A DNA stretch of 58,723 nucleotides from Verrucomicrobiota bacterium. GTDB lineage: Bacteria; Verrucomicrobiota; Verrucomicrobiia; Limisphaerales; UBA9464. Below are positions 6,118-22,773 of this stretch, piece after piece; position 1 is the first letter of the stretch; every line of letters starts with the position of its first letter. Location: positions 1 to 58,723 of the forward strand of contig CANIZL010000030.1 in the NCBI GenBank assembly GCA_947471985.1, given 5' to 3'. Below the pieces are notes generated by a model. It was not told where the DNA came from and did no database searches. It saw nothing but the letters and a program-made list of their open reading frames with translations. The translations under genes were made by a program, and so were the position numbers.

Positions 6118-7713
6118 ATGAATACGACACCGAAACGATGGATTGGAATTTTGGCGGCCATGACCCTTTCTCAGAGCACCCTGGCGCTGCGCGGGGCCGG
6201 TACCGAGGACTCCAATACGGTTGCGAAGTCCGCGGAAACTGAATCCCAATCCGCCAATTCAAGCCAGAAGGAGCTGGAATCAGCCAAGGCGTTGTCCGAT
6301 ACGAAGAGCGCTGAAGCCGCCAAGGCCGCCGAGGTGGCCAAGACCGCGGAAGATACCCGCGTCTCCGAAGGCGCCAAGGCGGCGGACGCGTCGAAGACCG
6401 CCGAATCGGCCAAGGCCCTCGCCACGGCCAAAGCCGAAGAAGCAAAGCAGGCGTCCGATGCCTACAAAGCGGCCGAGTCCACCCGGTCCAGTGAAGCCTC
6501 CAAGCTGAACGATTTAGCGAAGCTCGCCGAGTCAACCAAGGCGACTGCGGCCTCCAAGGCGGCGGACGCCGCGAAGAGTAACGACTCCCGCGAGGCCGAT
6601 GAAGCGTCCAAGGCGGCGGCCACGGCCAAAGCCGCGGAAGAGGCCTGGAAAGCGGAACTACCCAAAGCCGACGAAGCCACCAAGGCGGCGACGGTGGCCA
6701 AGGAACTTGCCACCATCAAGGCCTCCGAAGCGTCCAAAGCCTCCGATTCAGCCAAGGCCGCCGAGGCCATCAGCGCGGTCCGAAACCAACGCGCGAGCGA
6801 AGCCACCCGGGTCGCCGAAGCGGCGCAGTCGGTCTTGGCCACCAAAACCACCGAAGCCACCAGCGCGGCGGAAAAGTTGCAAACGCTCGAGACCACGATC
6901 GCCAAGATCGCCGAGGCAAACGGGGGATTACAGTCCCCCGTCCAATCGTCAGCCCGCCCGCTGGGCCTCAATGTGGTGGGGCCGGTCATGGCCGCGGGAT
7001 CGGATCCCAGCGCTGCTGCCTTCCAGAGCGACGCCCTCACCGCCGTCACCGACATGCTCAATTCCAAACTGAGCGAGACCAAGAAGGTCGATGATTCCGC
7101 GATGCTGCTGGATCCCTCCAAGCTCACGCTTCAGACCGATGCGGATGTCCGGGTCTATTTTGTGGGTGAGGGAGCTGGTTATAAGAACACGTTGGGCTTC
7201 AATACGACCGGCACCGGAGTGACCAGCGGAGATCCTCTGCTGATCTTCCCGGACGCTTCGAGTTCGGTGTCCACCTACGATCCGGCCTCCAAAGCTGTTC
7301 GCTCGACATCGGCCCCCTTGCTCCCGGGTGACTTCGTCAATCTCGGGCTGGTCGAATCCGGAACCCTGCTGAACTTCTTCCTCATCGCCAACGGGGCCAA
7401 CGGCGGAAAAACCGTCTTCTCGACGGATCAATCGGCCAACCCGGACGGCATCAATCACGTCGTCGCCTTCGCCTATGCGGTTCCGGGAAGTTCCTTCCTG
7501 GTCCTCGGCTTCGAAGATCTACTCGGTGGCGGTGATCGGGACTTCAACGATCTCCTTTTTGCAGTGGACATCGGGGCGCAAAACATCGCCGCGCTGACCG
7601 GCACCCCGGAGCCAGCGCTTTGCCTGACCTTGGGATCGTTTGTGGTGGGCGCCTTGTGGCTGAAACGCCGTCGCGACAGCTCGGCCGGCAACACGTCGTT
7701 TATTCTCGCCTGA
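6118..7713 (+). CDS. PEP-CTERM surface protein: Ala-rich helical stalk plus DUF4114 domain
   Basis: A 531-residue exported protein. A signal peptide (MNTTPKRWIGILAAMTLSQS) precedes about 240 residues (roughly 25-270) made almost only of A, K, E, S, T and D, in imprecise repeats such as AAKAAEVAKTAE; these should form a long charged helix or coiled coil. A DUF4114-like beta domain follows (GDFVNLGLVESGTLLNFFLI ... FEDLLGGGDRDFNDLLFAV). The C-terminus is a textbook PEP-CTERM sorting signal: PEP at 497-499, a hydrophobic stretch (LTLGSFVVGALWL), an RRR cluster and a short tail. It is the first gene of an operon that also encodes an exosortase, so it is probably that enzyme's substrate. The helical segment may project the protein from the surface or act as an extracellular-matrix spacer. 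Confidence 0.88.
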   Translation: MNTTPKRWIGILAAMTLSQSTLALRGAGTEDSNTVAKSAETESQSANSSQKELESAKALSDTKSAEAAKAAEVAKTAEDTRVSEGAKAADASKTAESAKALATAKAEEAKQASDAYKAAESTRSSEASKLNDLAKLAESTKATAASKAADAAKSNDSREADEASKAAATAKAAEEAWKAELPKADEATKAATVAKELATIKASEASKASDSAKAAEAISAVRNQRASEATRVAEAAQSVLATKTTEATSAAEKLQTLETTIAKIAEANGGLQSPVQSSARPLGLNVVGPVMAAGSDPSAAAFQSDALTAVTDMLNSKLSETKKVDDSAMLLDPSKLTLQTDADVRVYFVGEGAGYKNTLGFNTTGTGVTSGDPLLIFPDASSSVSTYDPASKAVRSTSAPLLPGDFVNLGLVESGTLLNFFLIANGANGGKTVFSTDQSANPDGINHVVAFAYAVPGSSFLVLGFEDLLGGGDRDFNDLLFAVDIGAQNIAALTGTPEPALCLTLGSFVVGALWLKRRRDSSAGNTSFILA

Positions 7714-7741
7714 ACTCCAACTCACTCACGTTCGAGTTCGC

Positions 7742-9679
7742 ATGAAAAAGCTCCTCCTCCTGGCCGCACTGGCCGCTGCCCTGCTCGTCGGCGGCATTGT
7801 CGGCACCCGGGTCTGGCGCGCCCGGGTGGTGGCCAAGGTGGAGGAGCGCGCTTTTCTTCAGGCGGGAAAACTCCTGCGCGAGGGCAAGTCCCTGGATGCG
7901 CTCGCCGTCATCGACGAGCAGCCTCGCAAGGATGTTCGTTTCGCGTGGAGCAAGCTGGAGCTGGAGGCCCTGGTGGGCAGTCGTCACGTCACCCGCGTCG
8001 CGTCGATCTATGGGCGCGCTCCGGAACGCGTTCTCGGCAACGAGGAAGGCTCTTTGCTGGTCGCCCGGGCCTTTCTGGCCGCGCATCAGCCGGGAGATTT
8101 TCTGAAGGTGCGCACGGCCTGGCAGGGACGCGAAATCCATCCGGAATGGTGGCTGGCCCTGGACTCCGACGTCCTGGGGTTTGAGGGGAAGGTTGCCCAA
8201 GCCGAGCGTCTGTTGCGCAGTCGCACCTTCGTGGGCGAGGGCGAAGCCACGCGCCTGGTGCGCCTGGCCTTGCACGCCGCGCCCCGGAACCTCGCGGAAT
8301 CATGGGAGCTGCTGGATCGCGCTTTTCGGGTTTCCCCGCGCAATCCGGAAATTCGGTCCTTTCGGGCGCAGATTCTCGAATCCATTGGCAAGTCCGCCGA
8401 GGCCCGGGTCGAATATGTGGCCGCCGTGGTCGCCGATCCCCGGAATCCCTTGCTGCGGGATGAACTCGCCGAGTTCTATCGTCGCCAGGGCAAATACGAT
8501 CTGGCCCTGGATACATGGCGCGAGGCCCTGCATCAGCCCGCTCCCGACTTCATTGCCCTGAAAGAGGCGTTTTGGAGTCGGATCATTCAACCCGCGGCCG
8601 CCCCGGCCCATCAGGACGTTCCGGGAACGATGGGTCCGCTGGTCGCCTTCATTCGGGCGCTTCCCGCCGATCGCTTTTGGGATGCCGAAGGTTTTGCCAG
8701 ATTGGCGCAAAACGAGCGGTTCGTTCGCGAGCGGCCCGAAGTTTATTGGTTGCAGTTGTTGGAGCTGATGCGGACGGGAAAGGATACGGAGGCCGCGGAA
8801 AAAATCACCGCCAACCGTTTCCGCAAACGCTCCTGGCGGCCCGAGTTGGAAACCGCATTGGCTCGCGTCCTGCAGTTTCGCACCCGTCGATCGCTCCACG
8901 TTGCCGGACTGGTCTCCACCGGAGCCAATACCAATCTCCATCCCTTTTTAAAGGAACTCGAAGCAACTGCCCGGGCGGAGTCCATCACGCACAAACCGAC
9001 CGCGACCAATAATGCGTTGGCGATGTACCTGACCGGCCCCAACGCCTTCGCCGGTGCGCTTCTGACGGTGGGCTGGCGGCAGGCGGCGCTCACGATCAAT
9101 GGGCCGACCGCCGGCACCAACACCCCCGCCTGGTTCACCTATGGATTGGCCCAGAGCCTGCGCTTCAACCGAGGCAATGCCGCGGCGCTCGAATTCCTTT
9201 CCCGCCAACGTACCGACTCCGAAGTAGTGCTGCTGCGCGGCGAATTGCTGCTGGCGGAAAAGCGCGTGGCGGAAGCCAAAACCACCCTGCAGACGATTGC
9301 CGAAGCGGATTCCGAGGCGGGCTCGCGAGCGGCGTGGCTGCTGGCGCAACTCGCCTTCGACGGCCGGGATTCCGCTGGCGTCGAACGGATCGTGGCGCGG
9401 CAGCCCCGATTGTCCTCCTCCACCCTCGGTCGCGAATTACTGGCGCGCTCCGCGCTGCAATCCGGGAAGGTGGCCCAGGCCGAGCGCCTGTACGTGTCCT
9501 TGGGCACCAACTCGATCGAAGCGCAGACCTACCTGGCAAAGCGCGCCTTTGCGCAGGGCAACTGGGCTGAGGCTCGTCGCCATACCGAAGCGCTTCAACG
9601 CCGGATGCCGGATGAACTCCAACTCCGGGAAAACCTGGCCGCCATCGCCAAAGCGGAGCGCTCCCATGAAAAACGCTGA
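7742..9679 (+). CDS. Membrane-anchored TPR-repeat protein of the exosortase operon
   Basis: A 645-residue protein starting with a signal anchor (MKKLLLLAALAAALLVGGIVG). The rest is helical with degenerate tetratricopeptide repeats, clearest at about residues 180-270 (APRNLAESWELLDRAFRVSP, NPLLRDELAEFYRRQGKYDL) and again near the C-terminus (LYVSLGTNSIEAQTYLAKRA). It starts 28 bases after the PEP-CTERM gene and overlaps the exosortase start by 14 bases, so cotranscription is likely. TPR proteins of similar placement accompany other exosortase/exopolysaccharide loci and may scaffold assembly in the periplasm. No enzymatic motif is visible. Confidence 0.85.
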   Translation: MKKLLLLAALAAALLVGGIVGTRVWRARVVAKVEERAFLQAGKLLREGKSLDALAVIDEQPRKDVRFAWSKLELEALVGSRHVTRVASIYGRAPERVLGNEEGSLLVARAFLAAHQPGDFLKVRTAWQGREIHPEWWLALDSDVLGFEGKVAQAERLLRSRTFVGEGEATRLVRLALHAAPRNLAESWELLDRAFRVSPRNPEIRSFRAQILESIGKSAEARVEYVAAVVADPRNPLLRDELAEFYRRQGKYDLALDTWREALHQPAPDFIALKEAFWSRIIQPAAAPAHQDVPGTMGPLVAFIRALPADRFWDAEGFARLAQNERFVRERPEVYWLQLLELMRTGKDTEAAEKITANRFRKRSWRPELETALARVLQFRTRRSLHVAGLVSTGANTNLHPFLKELEATARAESITHKPTATNNALAMYLTGPNAFAGALLTVGWRQAALTINGPTAGTNTPAWFTYGLAQSLRFNRGNAAALEFLSRQRTDSEVVLLRGELLLAEKRVAEAKTTLQTIAEADSEAGSRAAWLLAQLAFDGRDSAGVERIVARQPRLSSSTLGRELLARSALQSGKVAQAERLYVSLGTNSIEAQTYLAKRAFAQGNWAEARRHTEALQRRMPDELQLRENLAAIAKAERSHEKR

Positions 9680-10490
9680 TCGCCAAACCCTGGTCCTGCT
9701 GGCCCTTGGCGTCGCCTTCATCTGGCTCTTCGACCGCGCCTGGCTGGGAGCACCCGATGAATTCCTGCCCCTGCTGGGGGCCCTGCCCTTGCTGGTCTGG
9801 TTCGCCGGCCCGTGGAAATTTTCCCCCGACCCATTCCAGCTAAATCGCCAATGGCTCGGGTTCTCCGCCCTATTCGCGGTGGCGGGTTGGTTCACCGGCT
9901 TCAATATCCTGCTCGCCCTCGCGTGGACCAGCGCCCTGTGGGCTTGGGGAGATCTTCGCCTCGAAACCAACACCCGGGCTCGCTTGCTCCGACTGCTGCC
10001 CTTGGCGGTACTGGCCTTTCCCTGGCTGACCCTGGATTTTCCTTCCCTGGGCTGGTGGTTTCGTCTCTCCGCCGCTTGGACCTCGCAATACCTTTTCGCC
10101 GCCCTGGGCTTCACCGTCGAACGCGCGGGCACCCAATTGATGGTCGCCCGCATGCCCTTCGACGTCACGCCGGCGTGCGCCGGTTTAAAGGCGCTTCAAG
10201 CGATGGCCATCGGCGGGACGGCCTTGTGCTTCCTGCAGATCCGCCGGACCGGCAGTTATTGGCTCGGACTGGCCTGCCTCCCTCTGCTCGCGTGGATTGC
10301 CAATACACTGCGCGTCGCGGTCATCGTGGTGGCCGCCTTGACTGTCGGTCCCGAATTCGCCTCGGGCTGGTTTCATACCACCTCCGGGTGGCTGATCCTT
10401 ACCGGTATCTTCGCCCTGAGCTGGCTGGCCACGGAATTCCTTCGTCGGCCGGCGCGGCCTTTGAAAACGACGACGATCAAAGCCGGGTAA
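9666..10490 (+). CDS. Exosortase (archaeosortase/exosortase family transpeptidase)
   Basis: A 274-residue polytopic membrane protein with about eight hydrophobic segments and the family's catalytic set in order: Cys171 (VTPACAGLKALQAM), Arg216 (IANTLRVAVI) and His237 (GWFHTTSGWLIL). Exosortases are thought to cleave PEP-CTERM signals and attach the protein to another molecule. The ATG at 9666 lies inside the end of the TPR gene and begins MKNADRQ, just before the first membrane segment. It is shorter than XrtA-type proteins that carry a fused C-terminal EpsI domain; here the EpsI-like part is a separate downstream gene. I cannot assign a numbered Xrt subtype by eye. Confidence 0.9.
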   Translation: MKNADRQTLVLLALGVAFIWLFDRAWLGAPDEFLPLLGALPLLVWFAGPWKFSPDPFQLNRQWLGFSALFAVAGWFTGFNILLALAWTSALWAWGDLRLETNTRARLLRLLPLAVLAFPWLTLDFPSLGWWFRLSAAWTSQYLFAALGFTVERAGTQLMVARMPFDVTPACAGLKALQAMAIGGTALCFLQIRRTGSYWLGLACLPLLAWIANTLRVAVIVVAALTVGPEFASGWFHTTSGWLILTGIFALSWLATEFLRRPARPLKTTTIKAG

Positions 10491-10491
10491 C

Positions 10492-10965
10492 ATGAACCGG
10501 ATCTTCGCCGGAATACCCGTGGAACTGGGAGTGGCGCTTTTTTGCGCCGTCCAGAATCGCGTGCTGTGGATCGCCTGGCGCCATTCCCCGCGGGATCGCC
10601 TGGGGGACCTCACCTTTCTGATCTGGCTGCTGCCCGCGCTGTGGATCGCTTTTCGAAAACCGGCCAACCCACCCCGATCGGGAGTGCCAATCTTCTCGGT
10701 GGCCGCATTGATGATGGCGACCGTGGGCTTCATCACCGATGTCAACGCCCTGAACGCCGTGGCCCTGGCCCTCTCCGTGGCCGCCCTGCTGCCGCGCCCG
10801 GCCGCATCCCTCGTCTGGTTGCTCGGGGCCGTGGGTTGGATGCCCGCCTTCGGATGGTACGCGCACTTCCTGCCCACCATTGCCCTCGCCTTGGCGCGCC
10901 TGACCCTGGGCGTGGGCGCCTCCGCCTGGCTGCTGCAAGCATCGCGAAAATCTTCGTCTCCATGA
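10492..10965 (+). CDS. Small polytopic membrane protein of the exosortase operon
   Basis: A 157-residue protein with four to five hydrophobic segments (PVELGVALFCAVQNRVLWIA, FLIWLLPALWIAF, VPIFSVAALMMATVGFITDV, LNAVALALSVAALL, LTLGVGASAWLLQ). It starts one base after the exosortase stop and overlaps the next gene by ATGA. I recognise no family motif. Its fixed place between exosortase and EpsI-like genes suggests an accessory membrane subunit of the sorting system, which is inference from context only. Confidence 0.8.
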   Translation: MNRIFAGIPVELGVALFCAVQNRVLWIAWRHSPRDRLGDLTFLIWLLPALWIAFRKPANPPRSGVPIFSVAALMMATVGFITDVNALNAVALALSVAALLPRPAASLVWLLGAVGWMPAFGWYAHFLPTIALALARLTLGVGASAWLLQASRKSSSP

Positions 10966-11555
10966 ACCCGAAATCTTCCGGCCGAAAAATCCTGTGGCTA
11001 GCCCTCCTGTTGGTGGCCGTGGGTTGCATTCTATGGGAACTGCTTCCCGAGACCCGCGAGCCCTCGCGCTTGACCCAGCTGCCCCTGAAGGGATTTGGGT
11101 TCGCCGGACGCGACGTGCCGCTCACCGAAGCCGAAGCCACCGTCTTCAAACGCGCCGCGGTGTTGAAGCGCCTCTACCAGGTCGGCGGCGATCGCTTCGT
11201 GCTCCTCGCCGTGGACTCCGCCGGGGATCGGCATGCGGTCCACGATCCCCTGTACTGCTTTCGCGGTGCCGGTTGGTCCGTGGCGAGTGAAGTCCCCGTG
11301 GGGCTTCCCGGCGGCGAGAGCAAGTTGGTTCGACTCGTGAATGGCGAACGTTCCGCCGAAGCCCTGTATTGGATGACCGACGGCGAGAAACGCCATGCCT
11401 CGGTGCTGAAAGCCTGGTGGCAGGCGACGCTGAGACGCTTGGGCCTGCGACCCGCCGCGCAGGCCACGGTCCTGGTTTTATTGCAGCCCCTTTCCGGCGG
11501 CGACGTCCACTGGGCGGAAACACTCGACCGTTTCCCGGAATTGCTCAAACTCTAA
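10962..11555 (+). CDS. EpsI-like exosortase-associated protein
   Basis: A 197-residue protein with an N-terminal membrane anchor (ILWLALLLVAVGCILWELL) and a periplasmic domain resembling the EpsI family. It has a conserved-looking segment HDPLYCFRGAGW with His94 and Cys99, equivalent to the H-x-P-x-x-C...GW motif of EpsI proteins, and a later segment LLQPLSGGDVHW. EpsI domains accompany exosortases and exopolysaccharide export. The ATG at 10962 overlaps the preceding stop by four bases. It is the last gene of the operon; 153 bases follow before a gene on the other strand. Confidence 0.75.
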   Translation: MNPKSSGRKILWLALLLVAVGCILWELLPETREPSRLTQLPLKGFGFAGRDVPLTEAEATVFKRAAVLKRLYQVGGDRFVLLAVDSAGDRHAVHDPLYCFRGAGWSVASEVPVGLPGGESKLVRLVNGERSAEALYWMTDGEKRHASVLKAWWQATLRRLGLRPAAQATVLVLLQPLSGGDVHWAETLDRFPELLKL

Positions 11556-12848: not shown

Positions 12849-13703
12849 ATGAATTATCGAAAACTCGTCCTCAGCGCATTGCTCGCGAGCCTCACCCTGA
12901 CGCCCGTCCGCAGCCTGGCGGCTCCCGTCAGCTTTGGCTTTAGCGGCGTCATCAATTCCGTCACCAGTCCGGGCGGGGGACTGCCCGCAGGCCTCGCCGT
13001 GGACCAGCCCTTCCTGGTTATCGTGACCTACGATCCGGACCTCCTGCCGGCCGCGTTCGAATCACCGGCCAATGTGACCGACGCCAATTACTACACCACC
13101 AACCTGGCAGCGTATGGCTATTGGGCGCGGTTCGGCAGCCTGGAAATTTCCCTCCCTAACCCCGCGCCTGTCAAAGTCACCCACAGCATCGAGGTGCGAA
13201 ACGGGTTTGGCGGATGGGATGGGGTGCAGCAGGAAAGCTATGGCGCGGATGCCTGGTTCAATCAGGCGCCGCTGCCCGCCGGACAAATGGCCACGCGCGG
13301 CTTCAGCATCATGGACGACACCATGACGGCCTTCGACAGCGAGTCCCTCCCCTTGACCCTGCCGCCGATCAGCCAGTTCCAAAGAATCCACCGCGCCTCA
13401 TTCGCCGTGTTCCAAATTAATTCGGAAACCGGTGTTCCATCCACCCTCTATCAAGCCGGCGGTCTGATTTCCGAAATCACCAACTCCCCCCGGCCACCCC
13501 TCTCCCTGAGCCGGCAACCCAGCGGCAGCCTCCGCCTGTCGTGGCCCAGAATCCTGCCCGGGTACGTCCTTCAGTCTGCCAACGACCTGGACGGCAGCCC
13601 TTGGACTCCCGTCGCTGCGACGCAGACGGAAACCCCCACCGAATTCGTCGTCGAAGTAAAATCCGCCCCCGCGGGCACCTTTTTCCGTCTGCAGAAAAAC
13701 TAA
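12849..13703 (+). CDS. Secreted protein with a C-terminal shared beta module
   Basis: A 284-residue protein with a clear signal peptide (MNYRKLVLSALLASLTLTPVRSLAA). Residues about 25-210 form a beta-rich domain of the sort often seen in PEP-CTERM-type secreted proteins (FGFSGVINSVTSPGGG, VIVTYDPDL), but no PEP-CTERM tail is present. The last ~65 residues (LRLSWPRILPGYVLQSANDL ... WTPVAA ... TFFRLQKN) belong to a module that recurs in four other proteins of this window. The function is unknown; extracellular or envelope location is inferred. Confidence 0.78.
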   Translation: MNYRKLVLSALLASLTLTPVRSLAAPVSFGFSGVINSVTSPGGGLPAGLAVDQPFLVIVTYDPDLLPAAFESPANVTDANYYTTNLAAYGYWARFGSLEISLPNPAPVKVTHSIEVRNGFGGWDGVQQESYGADAWFNQAPLPAGQMATRGFSIMDDTMTAFDSESLPLTLPPISQFQRIHRASFAVFQINSETGVPSTLYQAGGLISEITNSPRPPLSLSRQPSGSLRLSWPRILPGYVLQSANDLDGSPWTPVAATQTETPTEFVVEVKSAPAGTFFRLQKN

Positions 13704-16050: not shown

Positions 16051-19000
16051 ATGTCTCTCGCTTCTATTTTCCGATCCATCCGGCAATTGGGATCCGTTTC
16101 GGCCATTGGCGCCGGCTGCTGCCTGACGTCGGTCCAAGGAGCCACGGTGCTGCAAGCCGTTCCCGAGGCCGACGGCCGGTTACGCCTGGAATGGAGCACG
16201 GCCCGTTCCCCGCTGCTGGAAGCCGCGGGTTCATTGGGAACCCCCTGGCAGCCGGTCACAGAGTTGCCCGTGGTGACCGGCGGCATCGCCCGACTCTCGA
16301 TCACTCCCGGGGATCAAAGTCGCTTCTTCCGGCTGCATGAATCGACCGTCACCACTGTCACCAGCACATCCCCATTACCCGGCGAAACTGGAGTGGCCGT
16401 CACTCGCGAAACGGTCGTGCGCTTCTCCGCCCCGCTGGCGGCGAATACGCAGGTGGGCACCAACCAATTTTTTGCCGAGGCCGGCGGACGCCGGATCCTC
16501 AGCCGGGTGGAAATGGGGTCGGATCGACTCAGTGCCACCTTGTTTTACCTCGAGCCCGTTCAGTCGAGCAGCCGCGTTTTGGTGACGCTGGTGGGCACGG
16601 GTCTGTCCGATGAAAACGGTATCGAGGTGGACGCCGACGGCAATCGCAGTCCCGGGGGCACCCGCTGGTTCACCTATGATACTGCTCCGGTGACCTCGAC
16701 GCCCAACTCGGCGGTCTCCGGTCATGTCTATGCTTCCGAACGATTGCCCGACGGCAGGAATCGACCGCTGGCCGGGGTCTTGATCACTGTGGACGGCGCG
16801 GAGGAAACCCTGCGGGCCAAGACCGACGCGCTGGGCTTCTTCCAACTCAACGACTGTCCGGCGGGTCGCTTCTTTGTTCATATTGACGGCCGCCCGGCCA
16901 CCGGCAGCAGCTGGCCCGGAGGCGCCTATTACCCCTACGTCGGCAAGGCTTGGACCGCGATACAAGGCATCACCAATAGCCTCCCCGGTGGGACGGGCGA
17001 TATCTACCTGCCACTGATACCCGCGGGCGCTCTCCGCGCCGTCAGCCCCGTGGCCGCGACCACAATTACCTTTCTGCCCGCCCTTATCGCAACCAATCCC
17101 GCTCTGGCCGGCGTTCAGATTGTGGTTCCGCCCAACGCCCTGTTTGCGGATTCCGGTGTGCGCGGCGGACGGGTGGGCATCGCACCGGTGCCCCCCGACC
17201 GCCTGCCCGAACCACTGCCCCCGGGATTGGAAATGCCGCTCGTCATCACCATTCAGACCGATGGCCCACAGAATTTTGCCGAGCCGGTCCCCGTACGTTT
17301 TCCCAATCTTCCCGATCCCAAGACCGGCTTGAAGTTGCCACCCGGAGCCAAGAGCGGGCTTTGGAGTTTCAATCACGACACCGGTCGCTGGGAATTGCAA
17401 GGCCGCATGACCGTCAGTGCCGACGGCCGCTTTCTCGACACCGATCCCGGCGTGGGCGTGCGCCAACCCGGCTGGCACGGGTTCAATCCCGGCACCAACG
17501 GCGACGGGGATGCGCCCGACGCGCCGCAGGTGGATGACGATCCCCTGCCGGATCCCACCGCACCGTCCCCCTTTGAGAAGTGCAAGAGCGAGATCTCCAA
17601 CCTGATGAACTCGGCCTTCGATTGCGCCTACGGGTCCGTCATTCCCGGCAAACTCTCGCCGGACAGCAGTGCGGACGGGTGCGCGATCGGCGTCGGACTC
17701 GGGGCCCTCGGCACCGTGCGCGACTGCCTGTCGGACCCCTCCGGATGCAAGGCGACCATCGTCAACAACACCGGCGGCGCGGTGATTGGCTGTTCCGGCG
17801 TCTTGGGCGATGCGCTGGCGCCAGCTTCGAAGGTTCTGGGCCCCGTCGGTACCATCGCCGGACTTATTCAAGGTTGTGTGCTTGGCCCGGGGCTGAATTT
17901 CTGCGCCATGGCCGACTGCCTCGAGCAATCGAGTGGCGACTCGTTCTGTGTTCCAGATAAATATGAAGCGGGGATGCAGCGCTGGCTGAACGATTGGGAT
18001 TTTCTTGGTAAAATATTCAGTTCAGATCCATCCCCGGCCCGGGCACGTCCCCTCGCGCAGGCCAACCTCGGCGAAGCGCCGCCCGAATTCATTGCGGAGG
18101 CGCGGACCAACGCCTTTCTGGCCCAAGCGCGTTTCTCCGCCGCCTTGCGCCAGTATATGGTCGCCTTCTATGGCTCGGCCAAATGGTTCCCGGCCACGGC
18201 CGCGGAAGCCCACTTGAGCGCGCAATTCCTCCGTCAATTGGACACCGCCACGTCCCCGCTGGGCGAGGGTGGCGCGATCGTAACCCCCGGCGAACGGACC
18301 GCCCTGCTGGCCCTGCCCTTGCCCGCGGGAGCGACCGCCGCGGACGCCCATGCCGTGATCTCCCGGATGGAACAGATCGGCAACGGCACAATTCCGGATG
18401 CCGAATTGAATCTGCGAGCGCTCTTGGGCTCGGCGGTGAAGTATGCCGAAATGTCGGCGGTCTTTCAGGCCTTGGGTTGGACCAGTTCCACAGAGGCGTT
18501 CAATCAGGGGCTACTCCAAATCTCGGCGAAATTTGACGCCCGCTGCAAAAGCTCCGGCGGCGTGGCCATCACTCCGGGAAGCGATGAAGCCAATGGGGGC
18601 GGCGGCGGCGGCGGGGGCGGGGGTGGCGGCGGCCAGTCGGGAGCGCAACCCATCCCGGTCCGCCCGCTCAGCTATCTGCTCCAGAATATGGACACCGGCT
18701 TCGCTCTACGCGGAAAAACCCAGACGGGCGCCTCCCTGGCCTCGTTGATCATGGCGCCCAACACCTACTACGCGCTGTACTTCGTTGATGACCTTTCGGG
18801 AACGACGTCGGTCAGTTTCTTCAAATCCGCGGAGGCGGGACAACCCACCAAGATCCCCTGCTCGATCTGGCTGAATGGGGGGGTGGCGTTGCACGATACC
18901 GACGGCGATGGGCTGAATGACATGGCCGAACGGGTGATTGGCACGTCCCTGACCCAGGCCGATACGGATGGCGACGGACAGATCGACCGACTCGAACTCG

Positions 19001-22000
19001 CGAATGGCACCAGCCCCGCCGATGGCGTGGCGCTGACGACCGGGCTGGTGGGCCAGGCCGCGATTCCCGGGGGCGGCGCGGTCACCGTGGCCGCCGAGGG
19101 ACGCGTCCTTTACGCGGGCGGTGCGGCGACCGGATTGACGGTTTTGGACGTGTCGAAGCCGCTCACCCCGGTTCAGATGGCCCGGCTGAACTTTCCCGGG
19201 CAAAATTTCAGCTTCGCTTTGGCGGCCCAAGGGGGGCGCGTCGCTCTCGGCGGCCCCAGCGGCTTGGCCTTGGTGGACGCCCGCACGCCGGCGGCCCCAA
19301 CCCTCATCACCAACCTGCCCTTGGCCCCCGTCATCGCCGCGACGTGGAGCCAGGACGACGTGGCCGCCCTCACGGGGTCCACGCTCCATCTTCTTGCTGC
19401 CACCACCGGCCGCACCCTCCTGCAGTATGGTCTGGGTGCGGATGCCGGTCAGGATGTCCAGGCGGTGGGGGACTATGTCTACGTATTGACCAACGTCCGA
19501 CTGCTGATTCTGCGCCGCATGGATGGGCTGCTGTTGGAACTCGGACGCATCAGTTTGACCGGCACAATCTCCCCGTTGGAGAACGGTCGAAAACTCTTCG
19601 TCGGTGGCGGAAAAGCGTATATCGGAGCCTTCGACGGATTCTCCATCGTAGACGTGCTCAATCCCGCACTACCCACGGTGCTGGGTGCGCCCCCGACGAC
19701 GCAGGCGGCCATTCACGATTTGGTGGCGAATGGCGCCGGCCTGCTGCTCCCGGTGGTCAGTTTCTCCGGAACCAGCACGCTCGCAGTGGGCGCGTATGAC
19801 GTCCGTAATCCGGGCGATACCACCCGTTTCCTGACCTCCTGGCAAACTCCCGGGGAAGCCCGCGCCCTCGTACTGCATCGCGGACTTGCGTACGTCGCCG
19901 ACTCGGGCAACGGCCTTCAGGTGCTGAATTATCTTTCGCCCGACCTCGCCGGGGTGGCGCCGACACTGACCTACACGGCCAATTTCGCCCTCTCGCCCGC
20001 CCGCGCGTCCTACGGCTCGCGCCTGCGCCTGCAGATCGACGCCCAGGACGATGTCCAGGTGCGGGAAGTCACCGCTTTTGTGGACGACGTACCGGTGGCC
20101 ACAGCCGAACGATTCCCGTTTCAACTGAGTTTCACGGCCCCCAATCAGGCTCCGGGACGCACCAACTTTTCCCTCCAACTCCGGGCCACGGACACGGCGG
20201 GCAATACGCGATCCACCCCACCTTTGCTCGTCGCGCTGGCGGTGGGCATTGATCCACCGCGATTGCTGACGACCTATCCCTATCCCGGCACCCGGCCGGA
20301 CTCTTTTGGCTTCACCAATGTCACGGTTGATTTCGATCAACCGCTCGCGCCGGCTTCCGTCACTCCCACCATGCTGTCGGTATTGGGGGCCGGAACGGAC
20401 AAGAAATTTGGCACAGCAGATGATGTCGCGCGCGCCGGCACGACCGTTCTCAGTCCCGACGGCAAGCGATTGGAATTTGTCGGGACCACTCAATTCCCGG
20501 ACGGATTGTTCCGCGTGCAACTGACCCCCGGGGCCCGCGGCACGGCGGTCGATGGGCTCGCGCGCGTGGAACCCGTCACGTGGAGCTTTGAAGTCGTGAG
20601 TGTCCGACCGCGCTTGAGTGCCGCCACCTCGCCCTCGGGCCTGGTCGCCGCTCCGCTCGATGGTCTGGCCGTCGTCGAGGCTGCGCTGGATCAGCCCACG
20701 ACTCCCGCGCGGGCGCCGTTGGCCCTCTTCAGCCTGAAGGAAGCCGGACCGGATCGAACCCGGGGGACAGCCGATGATATAACCCTGCCGCTGACCTCGA
20801 TCATCCTGACCGAGACCGCCAAGGGCTTTCAACTGACGCCCGCGACCCGCTTGGGCGCCGGGCGTTATCGCCTGTCCCTGAGCGGCAACGGCTATACCGC
20901 CTCCCAGGTTGATTTTGAATTGCGATCGGTCCCCAACATCTGGCGCAATGCCGCCGGCGGCCGGTGGACAGTGGCGACCAATTGGGCCAGCGGCGCCCCC
21001 CTGGTAAACGATTTCCTCAGCATTCCGCGTTTAACGCCGAATCTAAGCACGACCAACAACACCCTTCCGACCTTGAACCGCATCGAGAGCGCCGCGGATT
21101 TTGTCCAGGAACCCGGCAATCTAATTTTGACCGGCGAGGGCTACTTCGATGGGTACAGCCGTTTTCTCAGCAGCACCTTCGGTGCGGTTAATCTTTCGGG
21201 CGGTGGCACGATCATCAACCGGGGCACGATGCAACTCTCCACCGGCAGCGGGGCCGTCAATCGCACCGTGGAGTTACAGGACATAACCCTGGAAAACCGT
21301 GGGGAATTGACGTGGGACGCCGCCCAGTTGGGATTCACCCACACCAATGCTATGCTCTTCAACGGGCCAACGGGCGTGTTTTCCCTGGGGGCCAAGGCGA
21401 CGAGCACCCACAACGGAGGAGGTGCCTTCACCACCGTGGGCCGAATGGTCAACGCCGGCCTGCTGCGCAAATCGGCGGACACCAATCCGGTGAGCCTGCG
21501 AACGATTAAAATGGAGAACTCCGGGCAAATTCAGGTCACTCAAGGCATCTTGACCCTCGGAGAAACCGATGGCCCCGGAACAATGGAGGTGCAAGCGGGT
21601 GCCGGCATCATCTTCACGCGGCTGACTCAGATGGCGCCCGAGGCCCGCATCTTTGGCGGGGGTGATATCTACATCTCGGGCGGACCGACCAACGCACCGC
21701 AGGAACTGACCCATCGGCACGAGATCACCGGTCTCACCATCGCCACCACGGGGTACACCGATATACGGCAAGCCTTGAATTTCCCCGGCCTGCAGTTTCG
21801 CTCTTCCGGCGGCTGGTTTCGCTTCCACGCCCCCAGCACCACGCGGAGGCTTTGGGTCATCGGCGGAAGCTTCGAAGGCCTCGAGGTCAATGCGCCGGCG
21901 CTCACCGAAGTGCTGGATCTGGAACAAGGCCGCTTCACCGGGTCCGGCACAGTCGCCGTGAGCCAGAATCTCCGCTGGAAAAACGCCTGGCTCGGGGCCG

Positions 22001-22773
22001 GTGGCGATATCTCCGTCGCGGCCCAGGGTGAAATCTACGGCTCAGGCAAACTCGACCAGCGTCAGATCCACATTCTACCCGGCGCCACGGTGGTCTGTCC
22101 GGACACCGCTTTCATCGGCACCAGCGCCCGCGCTCTGGAAGGACGGATCGTCAACGACGGCACCTTGATTAAGCGCGGCCCCGGTACCCTGAGCGTGCAA
22201 GTCAGCCTGGAGAACCGTTCCCTGATCCGACTGGAAGCGGGCGAGCTGCTGATCGAACGCCAGCCGCAAGGGGACGGACAATTGTTCTTCCCGCGGGGCG
22301 AACTGCAATTCGCCGGCGGCTCTCTCCGATTGTATCTCCAAACCATCAACGGTTCGTCCCTGGGCCTCGGGACCAATGGTGTGATCAGCGGTTTTGGAAA
22401 AATCACCACTGAATCCGGTTTCGGCAATCGGCTCAGAAATAGCGCCTTGATACGTCTCAATGTCCCCGGTCGCACGCTGGAGTTAGTCGATCATGACTAC
22501 GATCAAACCGCCGCCGGTGAATTGGAAGTTACCCTGGGCGCCGCCGGGATTGGCCGCTTGTCCGGCAATCGCGGCGCCAGCCTCAAGGGCCGCCTCCGCA
22601 TCGTTCTGGAGCCCGGCTTCGAACCCACCGTGGGACAAAGCTTTGTGCTCCTCAGCATGGTGCGTTCGGGAACTTTCAATGAAGTGATCCTGCCCCCGCT
22701 CGGTGCCGGTCACCGTTTGGCCGTCACCTACCCGGCCGGACAGGTGGCGGTAACCGTTGTTGCGGATCCTTGA
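16051..22773 (+). CDS. Giant secreted multidomain protein (2240 residues)
   Basis: Starts MSLASIFRSIRQLGS with a signal-like segment (VSAIGAGCCLTSVQGA). A GTG eight codons upstream is the alternative start. In order: the shared L-x-W beta module (residues ~35-100); a Big_5-like Ig domain (SPLPGETGVAVTRETVVRFS); a carboxypeptidase-regulatory-like domain (PLAGVLITVDG); a cysteine-rich region (~510-640); a run of 12 Gly (~850-861); calcium-binding DTDGDGLND/DTDGDGQID repeats (~950-985); an LVIVD-type beta-propeller (~1010-1310; LTVLDVSKPLTPVQ, FSIVDVLNPALPTV); further Ig/Big_5 domains; and an autotransporter-like beta-helix beginning WRNAAGGRWTVATNWASG (~1630) that ends with a YDQTAAGELEVTL...PTVGQSFVLL segment. 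No membrane barrel or PEP-CTERM is present. A cell-surface or matrix role is likely; the ligand is unknown. Confidence 0.85.
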   Translation: MSLASIFRSIRQLGSVSAIGAGCCLTSVQGATVLQAVPEADGRLRLEWSTARSPLLEAAGSLGTPWQPVTELPVVTGGIARLSITPGDQSRFFRLHESTVTTVTSTSPLPGETGVAVTRETVVRFSAPLAANTQVGTNQFFAEAGGRRILSRVEMGSDRLSATLFYLEPVQSSSRVLVTLVGTGLSDENGIEVDADGNRSPGGTRWFTYDTAPVTSTPNSAVSGHVYASERLPDGRNRPLAGVLITVDGAEETLRAKTDALGFFQLNDCPAGRFFVHIDGRPATGSSWPGGAYYPYVGKAWTAIQGITNSLPGGTGDIYLPLIPAGALRAVSPVAATTITFLPALIATNPALAGVQIVVPPNALFADSGVRGGRVGIAPVPPDRLPEPLPPGLEMPLVITIQTDGPQNFAEPVPVRFPNLPDPKTGLKLPPGAKSGLWSFNHDTGRWELQGRMTVSADGRFLDTDPGVGVRQPGWHGFNPGTNGDGDAPDAPQVDDDPLPDPTAPSPFEKCKSEISNLMNSAFDCAYGSVIPGKLSPDSSADGCAIGVGLGALGTVRDCLSDPSGCKATIVNNTGGAVIGCSGVLGDALAPASKVLGPVGTIAGLIQGCVLGPGLNFCAMADCLEQSSGDSFCVPDKYEAGMQRWLNDWDFLGKIFSSDPSPARARPLAQANLGEAPPEFIAEARTNAFLAQARFSAALRQYMVAFYGSAKWFPATAAEAHLSAQFLRQLDTATSPLGEGGAIVTPGERTALLALPLPAGATAADAHAVISRMEQIGNGTIPDAELNLRALLGSAVKYAEMSAVFQALGWTSSTEAFNQGLLQISAKFDARCKSSGGVAITPGSDEANGGGGGGGGGGGGGQSGAQPIPVRPLSYLLQNMDTGFALRGKTQTGASLASLIMAPNTYYALYFVDDLSGTTSVSFFKSAEAGQPTKIPCSIWLNGGVALHDTDGDGLNDMAERVIGTSLTQADTDGDGQIDRLELANGTSPADGVALTTGLVGQAAIPGGGAVTVAAEGRVLYAGGAATGLTVLDVSKPLTPVQMARLNFPGQNFSFALAAQGGRVALGGPSGLALVDARTPAAPTLITNLPLAPVIAATWSQDDVAALTGSTLHLLAATTGRTLLQYGLGADAGQDVQAVGDYVYVLTNVRLLILRRMDGLLLELGRISLTGTISPLENGRKLFVGGGKAYIGAFDGFSIVDVLNPALPTVLGAPPTTQAAIHDLVANGAGLLLPVVSFSGTSTLAVGAYDVRNPGDTTRFLTSWQTPGEARALVLHRGLAYVADSGNGLQVLNYLSPDLAGVAPTLTYTANFALSPARASYGSRLRLQIDAQDDVQVREVTAFVDDVPVATAERFPFQLSFTAPNQAPGRTNFSLQLRATDTAGNTRSTPPLLVALAVGIDPPRLLTTYPYPGTRPDSFGFTNVTVDFDQPLAPASVTPTMLSVLGAGTDKKFGTADDVARAGTTVLSPDGKRLEFVGTTQFPDGLFRVQLTPGARGTAVDGLARVEPVTWSFEVVSVRPRLSAATSPSGLVAAPLDGLAVVEAALDQPTTPARAPLALFSLKEAGPDRTRGTADDITLPLTSIILTETAKGFQLTPATRLGAGRYRLSLSGNGYTASQVDFELRSVPNIWRNAAGGRWTVATNWASGAPLVNDFLSIPRLTPNLSTTNNTLPTLNRIESAADFVQEPGNLILTGEGYFDGYSRFLSSTFGAVNLSGGGTIINRGTMQLSTGSGAVNRTVELQDITLENRGELTWDAAQLGFTHTNAMLFNGPTGVFSLGAKATSTHNGGGAFTTVGRMVNAGLLRKSADTNPVSLRTIKMENSGQIQVTQGILTLGETDGPGTMEVQAGAGIIFTRLTQMAPEARIFGGGDIYISGGPTNAPQELTHRHEITGLTIATTGYTDIRQALNFPGLQFRSSGGWFRFHAPSTTRRLWVIGGSFEGLEVNAPALTEVLDLEQGRFTGSGTVAVSQNLRWKNAWLGAGGDISVAAQGEIYGSGKLDQRQIHILPGATVVCPDTAFIGTSARALEGRIVNDGTLIKRGPGTLSVQVSLENRSLIRLEAGELLIERQPQGDGQLFFPRGELQFAGGSLRLYLQTINGSSLGLGTNGVISGFGKITTESGFGNRLRNSALIRLNVPGRTLELVDHDYDQTAAGELEVTLGAAGIGRLSGNRGASLKGRLRIVLEPGFEPTVGQSFVLLSMVRSGTFNEVILPPLGAGHRLAVTYPAGQVAVTVVADP

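Follow-up and report, generated by a model that had tools for sequence, protein, structure and literature searches.

Within the window, the 58,723-nucleotide stretch of a Verrucomicrobiota contig analysed here, the open reading frame list and a Pfam/NCBIfam profile search placed five tightly spaced genes on the same strand at 6118-11555, exactly where the first-pass annotation had seen a packed five-gene locus. Their products are, in order, a DUF4114/PEP-CTERM protein, a TPR protein, an exosortase, a 157-aa membrane protein (M157) and an EpsI-like protein, and successive genes are separated by a 28 b gap, a 14 b overlap, a 1 b gap and a 4 b overlap. The first gene (6118..7713, + strand) encodes the 531-aa substrate, which carries a DUF4114 domain (PF13448, E 1.5e-13), a signal peptide recognised by eye, a stretch rich in A/K/E/S/T/D and a C-terminal TPEP-transmembrane-KRRR tail. 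The sorting signal in this tail (7603..7674, +), delimited from the sequence, the tail consensus and the tail classes, consists of a PEP motif, a hydrophobic helix and a basic cluster (TPEPALCLTLGSFVVGALWLKRRR). The 645-aa TPR protein (7742..9679, +) was matched by Pfam TPR models and has an N-terminal hydrophobic stretch recognised by eye; it is a conserved partner and distantly PrsT-like, matching the PrsT model TIGR02917 with E 2.8e-11 but with 42.1 bits against a cut-off of 312.2. The EpsI-like protein (197 aa; 10962..11555, +) is a conserved neighbour encoded by a separate gene and exceeded the cut-off of DUF3485/EpsI (PF11984, E 2.2e-12, 47.5 bits, cut-off 26.1), stayed below that of TIGR02914 (26 bits vs 42.8), and was also matched by the XrtO model (E 3.5e-7). 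The split of EpsI from the enzyme had been read as a specialised feature; it is ordinary instead, because Haft 2006 (PMC1569441), in its accessible portion, already describes EpsI both fused with and adjacent to exosortases, and gives no known function for it.

The exosortase (274 aa; 9666..10490, +; AlphaFold2 pLDDT 93.9) belongs to the exosortase superfamily, with 77.7 bits for PF09721 (E 1.2e-21, cut-off 25.7) and 51.8 bits for TIGR04178 (cut-off 23). Cys171, Arg216 and His237, which the first-pass annotation had picked out and which would be the catalytic residues by analogy with the family, were invariant in an alignment of 39 sequences, window included. The enzyme scored below the subfamily model TIGR02602 (61.7 vs 105.55), and none of the typed Xrt/Crt cut-offs (NCBIfam 20.0) was exceeded by the five exosortases scanned with these models, namely that of the window, L110, L093, L120 and L095. 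In two trees, the group of 56 sequences formed one long branch apart from 26 other exosortases (support 1.0, UFBoot 100). Searches of the PDB with the exosortase returned no sequence match at E <= 1 and no fold match at E <= 0.001, and a viral scan yielded no exosortase relative. The locus is best labelled as an exosortase type without a name, joined by a new family of partner proteins.

The gene order was compared across 38 loci that had enough sequence on both flanks. All five genes were present in order in 22 of them, window included, and the TPR-exosortase-M157-EpsI core in 29; since the order recurs in 22/38 loci, the five-gene arrangement is more than chance. Records that contain the unit bear the labels Verrucomicrobia, Deltaproteobacteria, Pirellulaceae and others, and one named species, Desulfoluna butyratoxydans (L093), has it too. 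Homologous exosortases lacking these neighbours had been named beforehand as evidence against a self-contained system, and this objection applies in part: four members of the exosortase group (L088, L089, L092 and L109) have a divergent TPR gene, with substrate, M157 and EpsI absent alongside. Loci L108 and L116 have EpsI and lack M157.

M157 (10492..10965, +; AlphaFold2 pLDDT 89.3) matched no Pfam or NCBIfam family at E <= 1, and PADLOC returned nothing for it. It is fused in frame to the exosortase, to EpsI or to both in seven relatives, and among 387 genomes of the phylum, the seven in which both M157 and this exosortase were detected encode them side by side in every case. M157 is a genuine part of the exosortase unit, and the earlier suggestion of an undescribed subunit is supported in so far as the fusions and the co-occurrence point to a real partner that is unnamed in the libraries scanned.

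The profile of M157 aligned with that of the exosortase (hhalign, E 1.3e-4) colinearly from residue 1 with zero offset, residues 1-123 falling on 1-132, whereas reversed controls gave E 0.15 and 0.35. Across comparisons the match to the exosortase reached E about 1e-4 to 3e-4, with an hhalign probability of only 41-60%, and in one case out of 60 a block-shuffled control scored higher than the real pair (35.3 vs 34.0). These values, weak in absolute terms, would also suit a small membrane protein of other descent, such as an exosortase chaperone, whose likeness to the enzyme arose by convergence of hydrophobic sequence. A PDB fold search with M157, which gave no match at E <= 0.001, favours convergence as well, as do the weak NCBIfam/Pfam matches of M157 members, which are mostly to families unrelated to exosortases. 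However, when the M157 profile was compared with 24 families of neighbouring proteins, the exosortase scored 34.8, the highest score among the 22 families other than M157 and the exosortase was 16.6, and five other hydrophobic families reached only 8.9-14.3. In a joint MAFFT alignment, in which some rows were misplaced and which was used only for the placement of M157, the invariant or nearly invariant W29, W45, G79 and W116 of M157 lay under W26, W45, G74 and W120 of the exosortase, and the AlphaFold2 models of the two proteins agreed in the lengths and order of their helices. Matches of single M157 members to exosortase models were weak, few and set amid chance-like matches to other families, but those of M157 members or the M157-like domain included five exosortase models (XrtT, XrtD, XrtA, XrtS and PF09721). 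Taken together, we consider convergence rather unlikely, and M157 is probably paralogous to the N-terminal exosortase half and lacks the catalytic half, a relationship suggested by modest profile scores and predicted models. A PDB sequence search with M157 gave six matches with E 0.26-0.49, which were taken as chance. A catalytic Arg in M157 was considered and rejected: MAFFT set Arg136 under exosortase Arg216, but this needed a large gap, and by helix order Arg136 pairs with exosortase Arg133, both lying seven residues along corresponding helices of the two models. An M157-like domain was also found ahead of an EpsI-like domain in L201 and L202, beside two other exosortases.

The core of the substrate shares 44-63% identity with 24 relatives, and in its DUF4114 region Asp443, Asp467, Asp475 and Asp478 are conserved. 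Residues 25-270 consist to 80% of A, K, E, S, T and D, in agreement with the nearly six-letter region of about 240 residues described in the first-pass annotation, where it was further interpreted as a helical stalk in a surface-fibre or matrix system. Polymerisation of such a long stretch into stalks would fit a low-complexity region of 246 residues with 30% Ala, and the EntB wall-protein model picked up the substrate through its low complexity (51 bits vs a cut-off of 780). The charges in residues 25-270, however, peaked at a strict period of six residues and gave no signal around 3.5-3.6 or 7. The main peak of the hydrophobic/Ala track was at 3.0, with a lesser one at 3.52 (8.6 vs a shuffle limit of 6.9). 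A long low-complexity insert was present in only five of the 34 substrate rows compared, four of which were cut at the front, and the five (window, L100, L107, L122 and L123) differed from one another in letters and repeat. The period and the absence from most relatives led us to reject the coiled-coil or fibre reading of the stretch, which, judged by these alignments, is lineage-specific and not part of the system. Tandem repeats in the DNA beneath it were weak (four short rows in the part searched, scores 33-36), and an extra substrate copy at L127 has a different, Gln/Ser/Asn-rich region. As for the domain itself, the published work, as far as it was accessible, shows mannose binding for a DUF4114 protein of Acanthamoeba and treats DUF4114 as a sugar-binding type of domain or proposes it as such. 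A polymerising fibre is therefore not indicated and is highly improbable, whereas DUF4114 suggests, by analogy, a sugar-binding adhesin. A PDB sequence search with the substrate gave one match (E 0.73), taken as chance.

The PEP-CTERM signal of the substrate, with PEP, a transmembrane stretch and KRRR, was recognised by eye, and its PEP was invariant in 25 aligned sequences, which upholds the original identification of a PEP-CTERM protein. The window substrate was absent from the PF07589 matches in its own genome at E <= 10 and from the TIGR02595 matches at E <= 0.001. In leave-one-out scoring, 21 of 22 tails of the substrate family (SUB) fell in their own class, compared with 2 of 27 other PEP-CTERM tails. 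In support of a sorting signal of this type, the tail recurs in G057, whose only exosortase is of this type, on three proteins that have no match to the substrate profile. The window genome contains one SUB-family substrate and three other exosortases, which are available for the ordinary PEP-CTERM proteins, and 14 of its 16 other PEP-CTERM tails scored fell in the non-SUB class. Among 51 genomes, exactly one SUB-family match was found in 28, two to six in 15 and none in 8. The operon could instead encode a general exosortase for many PEP-CTERM proteins, the adjacent substrate being merely one of them. Such a general role would account for G057, where five of six PEP-CTERM proteins scored as SUB-type tails. 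It would likewise account for G066 and G074, each with a single exosortase, of this type, and with 12 and 6 PEP-CTERM matches, respectively (E <= 0.5), and for the weak matches of the substrate-tail profile to ordinary PEP-CTERM tails (E values no better than 4e-4 in G066 and 6e-4 in G000). Nevertheless, tail scoring in G066 and G074 placed all 11 tails in the non-SUB class, and missing contigs could explain the excess of PEP-CTERM proteins in these two genomes. In addition, the four PEP-CTERM matches of G067, none above the curated cut-off, were all SUB-family proteins, and the sole match in G087 was the operon's own substrate. Together with the class difference in the window genome, these results make a general exosortase unlikely. 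The dedicated pair proposed at first holds in that one substrate is usually encoded beside the enzyme; the pairing is usual, not strict, since service to many PEP-CTERM proteins, named earlier as the contrary outcome, finds a partial counterpart in the 15 genomes with several SUB matches.

The closest known arrangement is the XrtA/EpsH system with PrsT and EpsI, which, in the available part of Haft 2006 (PMC1569441), likewise combines an exosortase, a fused or adjacent EpsI-like protein, a TPR protein and a PEP-CTERM signal. The window exosortase nevertheless reached only 54 bits against the XrtA cut-off of 208, M157 is added, none of the ten window neighbours scanned encoded PrsK/PrsR or polysaccharide functions, and the window type usually has one adjacent substrate where XrtA/EpsH has many scattered ones. 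XrtF of Flavobacterium johnsoniae also has a neighbouring partner, the exosortase F system-associated protein, and the accessible text of PMC10936215 reports that each of the two is required for biofilm; 0/39 M157 members, by contrast, matched the XrtF-associated NCBIfam model at E <= 0.1. The NCBIfam models XrtO, XrtD and XrtN share an EpsI-like part, C-terminal in those models, but their typed cut-offs were not reached by the window type, and in the XrtO model the exosortase is matched up to position 258 and EpsI from 286 onwards, an interval too short to accommodate an M157 domain. A rhombosortase paired with a single GlyGly-CTERM target, called dedicated in the available part of PMC3237569, offers a similar pairing with an unrelated, rhomboid-family enzyme.

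A reasonably likely reading of the locus, in our view, is a self-contained exosortase system of unnamed type, with M157 as a non-catalytic half-enzyme and a sugar-binding substrate. The DUF4114 substrate would be exported through Sec, its C-terminal PEP-helix-basic tail would keep it in the inner membrane, and the exosortase would cut or transfer it at the PEP motif by means of Cys171, Arg216 and His237, as expected from the family. M157, which by profile and helix order appears to have arisen by duplication of an N-terminal exosortase half and to lack the catalytic half, is probably placed next to the enzyme, serving as a scaffold or as a subunit for specificity; the gene fusions in relatives suggest that it joins the exosortase to EpsI. 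The TPR protein may act as an anchored adaptor. The product would be a protein of the cell surface, probably an adhesin that binds sugars in a calcium-dependent way and attaches the cell to polysaccharide, as DUF4114 elsewhere suggests, and the A/K/E stretch may be an optional spacer lifting the binding domain off the surface. More tentatively, and with slightly less than even confidence, we propose a heteromeric exosortase in which M157, a catalytically empty copy of the front half, links the enzyme with EpsI and makes it specific for a single sugar-binding protein of the surface.

Many exosortase systems are difficult to study because their substrates are numerous and scattered, and to our knowledge the roles of exosortase partners (EpsI, TPR proteins and small membrane proteins) are not established. 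A compact unit in which one enzyme goes with one usual substrate and a fixed set of three partners would let enzyme, partner and EpsI be tested with a single substrate, for which its presence in the named species D. butyratoxydans is relevant. If M157 is half an exosortase, it tells how exosortases are assembled; and if the heteromeric arrangement is true, the M157-like and EpsI-like domains of L201 and L202 would make half-enzymes a general, overlooked part of exosortase machines.

The window carries five genes on one strand at 6118-11555, encoding in order a substrate (DUF4114 in Pfam, with a PEP-CTERM sorting signal), a protein with TPR repeats, an exosortase, a 157-residue membrane protein (M157; 10492-10965) and a DUF3485/EpsI protein. 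They are spaced by a 28 b gap, a 14 b overlap, a 1 b gap and a 4 b overlap. One side has a MacAB-like efflux set together with genes for an ECF sigma factor and a FecR-like protein, and the other a HEAT-repeat protein; none of the ten scanned neighbours was named as a polysaccharide gene, and three of the ten had no match. Near the operon, at 16147-22773, a protein of 2208 residues contains Ig-like and LVIVD repeats. Several source-genome proteins have an FFRL/FYRL-type C-terminus, such as GTFFRLQKN or RFYRLFQP (window 12849-13703; the gene ending at 16959 in locus L077; those ending at 1838 and 15248 in L078), perhaps another shared C-terminal domain.

A family-level search of 50 genomes revealed nine more sites, spread over six other genomes and sharing 41-47% identity at E values no worse than 4e-47, and one scan of a species-genome collection with the alignment of these matches returned 54 loci. 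Their records are labelled, in the depositors' own terms for MAGs, as Verrucomicrobia, Deltaproteobacteria, Pirellulaceae, Lentisphaerae, Bacteroidetes and, in three cases, names of Chlamydiota type; the species Desulfoluna butyratoxydans is also represented. With the window, 55 loci, among which three pairs share one genome each, were scored with profiles of the five proteins. Where at least 1.3 kb lay downstream (48 loci), EpsI was present in 44 and M157 in 43; L108 and L116 had EpsI without M157. Where at least 3.3 kb lay upstream (43 loci), a TPR gene directly preceded the exosortase in 33 and a substrate match occurred in 25, the one in L125 being a tail only. L098 was not counted because its TPR match was partial; L088, L089, L092 and L109, which branch together (UFBoot 100), had only a divergent TPR gene beside the exosortase; and no TPR gene was found upstream of the exosortase in L117, L125, L126 and L129. 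By eye, another PEP-CTERM protein adjoined the exosortase in L089, and L125 and L129 had a neighbouring one that was not DUF4114-like. In L123 the substrate and TPR genes follow EpsI. A tandem pair of DUF4114-like PEP-CTERM proteins precedes the TPR gene at L127:2440-4948; the first member has an extended Gln/Ser/Asn-rich N-terminal region. Among the 38 loci with both flanks, 22 kept all five genes in order and 29 the TPR-exosortase-M157-EpsI core, confirming a conserved unit.

The exosortases of the window, L093, L095, L110 and L120 passed the general signature TIGR04178 and none of the typed NCBIfam cut-offs. In trees, 56 sequences, including L206-L208, separated from a limited outgroup sample of 26 other exosortases with support of 1.0 (FastTree) and UFBoot 100. 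Cys171, Arg216 and His237 were invariant in 39 aligned rows. This exosortase is also carried by three MAGs (L086, L096, L098) with the labels Parachlamydiales, Waddliaceae and Parachlamydiaceae, which cluster together in the tree; exosortases under Chlamydiota-type labels, here those of the depositors, would be unexpected.

The first-pass annotation had suggested that M157 may be an undescribed subunit, and in this it was right. Neither Pfam nor NCBIfam gave a match for the window protein at E <= 1. Across 387 genomes of the phylum, with at most nine M157 and six exosortase candidates scored per genome, M157 turned up in 10 at E <= 1e-4 and the exosortase in 8 at E <= 1e-20; the seven having both carried them adjacent on the same contig. 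In L090, L097, L117 and L130, M157 was fused in frame with the exosortase, in L120 with EpsI, and in L110 and L204 with both. In G147, M157 and EpsI adjoined an exosortase remnant, the gene at L200 (G147:C60) being reduced to a short stub, as if the system were decaying. G440 gave only a partial, weak exosortase match. In G110 and G182, a single ORF with an M157-like and then an EpsI-like domain (E 0.0019 in G110; TIGR02914 at E 1e-9, below cut-off, in G182) adjoined another kind of exosortase. Two exosortase systems of the phylum that differ from this one (L201:4644-9417 and L202:3425-7842) place an M157-like domain ahead of an EpsI-like one (motif AWRHSPLDRWDW / AWRSSPMDRFDW); both have a TPR gene, recognised by NCBIfam in L202 and by eye in L201.

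Profile comparison aligned M157 with the exosortase from its first residue and with no offset (E 2.8e-4), and another comparison placed 1-123 on 1-132 (E 1.3e-4); reversed controls gave E 0.35 and 0.15. The median of 60 block shuffles was 18.1, with one (35.3) exceeding the real score of 34.0. Against 24 families built from neighbouring proteins, the M157 profile scored 34.8 with the exosortase, at best 16.6 with the 22 that were neither M157 nor exosortase, and 8.9-14.3 with five other hydrophobic families. The 39 M157 members weakly matched XrtT (three), XrtD (two), XrtS, XrtA and PF09721 (one each; best E 0.00097), mixed with single weak matches to fourteen unrelated families. AlphaFold2 models were confident (pLDDT 89.3 for M157, 93.9 for the exosortase). 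Because the M157 helices (10-21, 23-31, 33-55, 66-82, 85-97, 103-116, 118-123, 129-154) are matched in order by the exosortase front helices (3-22, 24-28, 34-37, 39-47, 61-77, 80-98, 101-116, 120-124, 126-146), beyond which strands and helices bear the Cys, Arg and His, M157 as modelled looks like the front half of an exosortase alone.

The proposal of one dedicated substrate stood in part. The source genome has four exosortases, 15 PEP-CTERM matches at E <= 0.01 (16 over cut-off in another search) and a single protein of the substrate family (SUB). Over 51 genomes, where some matches are fragments of one protein and some contigs are truncated, 28 had exactly one SUB match, 15 had two or more and 8 had none. 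Leave-one-out scoring called 21/22 SUB tails SUB-like versus 2/27 others, a separation helped by shared ancestry of the SUB tails; both exceptions were in the source genome. A tail profile search of six genomes ranked SUB first in G000, G064, G066 and G087, all in the training set, and weakly matched ordinary PEP-CTERM tails. Genomes with this exosortase alone are more telling. G067 had four PEP-CTERM matches, none over cut-off and all SUB proteins (2/3 scored tails positive); G087 had one, the operon's own, whose tail belongs to the training set; and G057 had six PEP-CTERM proteins with 5/6 tails positive, including all three outside the SUB profile. Against dedication, G066 and G074 had 12 and 6 matches, with all 11 scored tails in the other class, although these genomes may be incomplete. 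G069, with one exosortase, had neither a PEP-CTERM match at E <= 0.5 nor a SUB match.

From residue 267 on, the substrate shared 44-63% identity with 24 relatives. The preceding low-complexity stretch had been read as a special stalk; long inserts there occur in 5 of the 34 substrate rows listed (window, L122, L123, L100, L107) and are unlike in letters and repeat. In the window, the charges have a six-residue period (power 30 and 23 at period 6; shuffle limit about 7) and show no heptad signal, so a coiled coil is not supported; the hydrophobic/Ala track peaked at 3.0, with a minor peak at 3.52. The stretch is possibly a single helix or spacer. DUF4114 is reported to bind mannose in Acanthamoeba (recombinant expression, without mutants), and in Myxococcus PilY1.1 it has been put forward as a calcium-dependent, polysaccharide-directed domain (PMC11934332, PMC9109919, PMC13190605). 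Acidic residues of the FEDLxGGGDxDxND motif (E466, D467, D475, D478) are kept in 25/25 sequences. By analogy, we infer that the substrate is probably a calcium-dependent sugar-binding adhesin.

Fusion or adjacency of EpsI, the PrsT protein and numerous scattered substrates are already described in PMC1569441, so a separate EpsI is not distinctive; the concept of a dedicated sorting pair (PMC3237569) and, for XrtF, an exosortase neighbour required for biofilm (PMC10936215) are also known. In the literature collection searched, no paper joins DUF4114 with PEP-CTERM. Among the titles listed on exosortases together with verrucomicrobial or planctomycete groups, archaeosortases or EpsI, none concerns this unit; an earlier mention is possible. 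The first-pass annotation was right on the unit and its undescribed subunit, and wrong in its reading of what makes EpsI and the stalk special. These results indicate that the unit is a genuine and widespread type of exosortase that the family library scanned does not name, and that its conserved partner, M157, is probably a half-exosortase.
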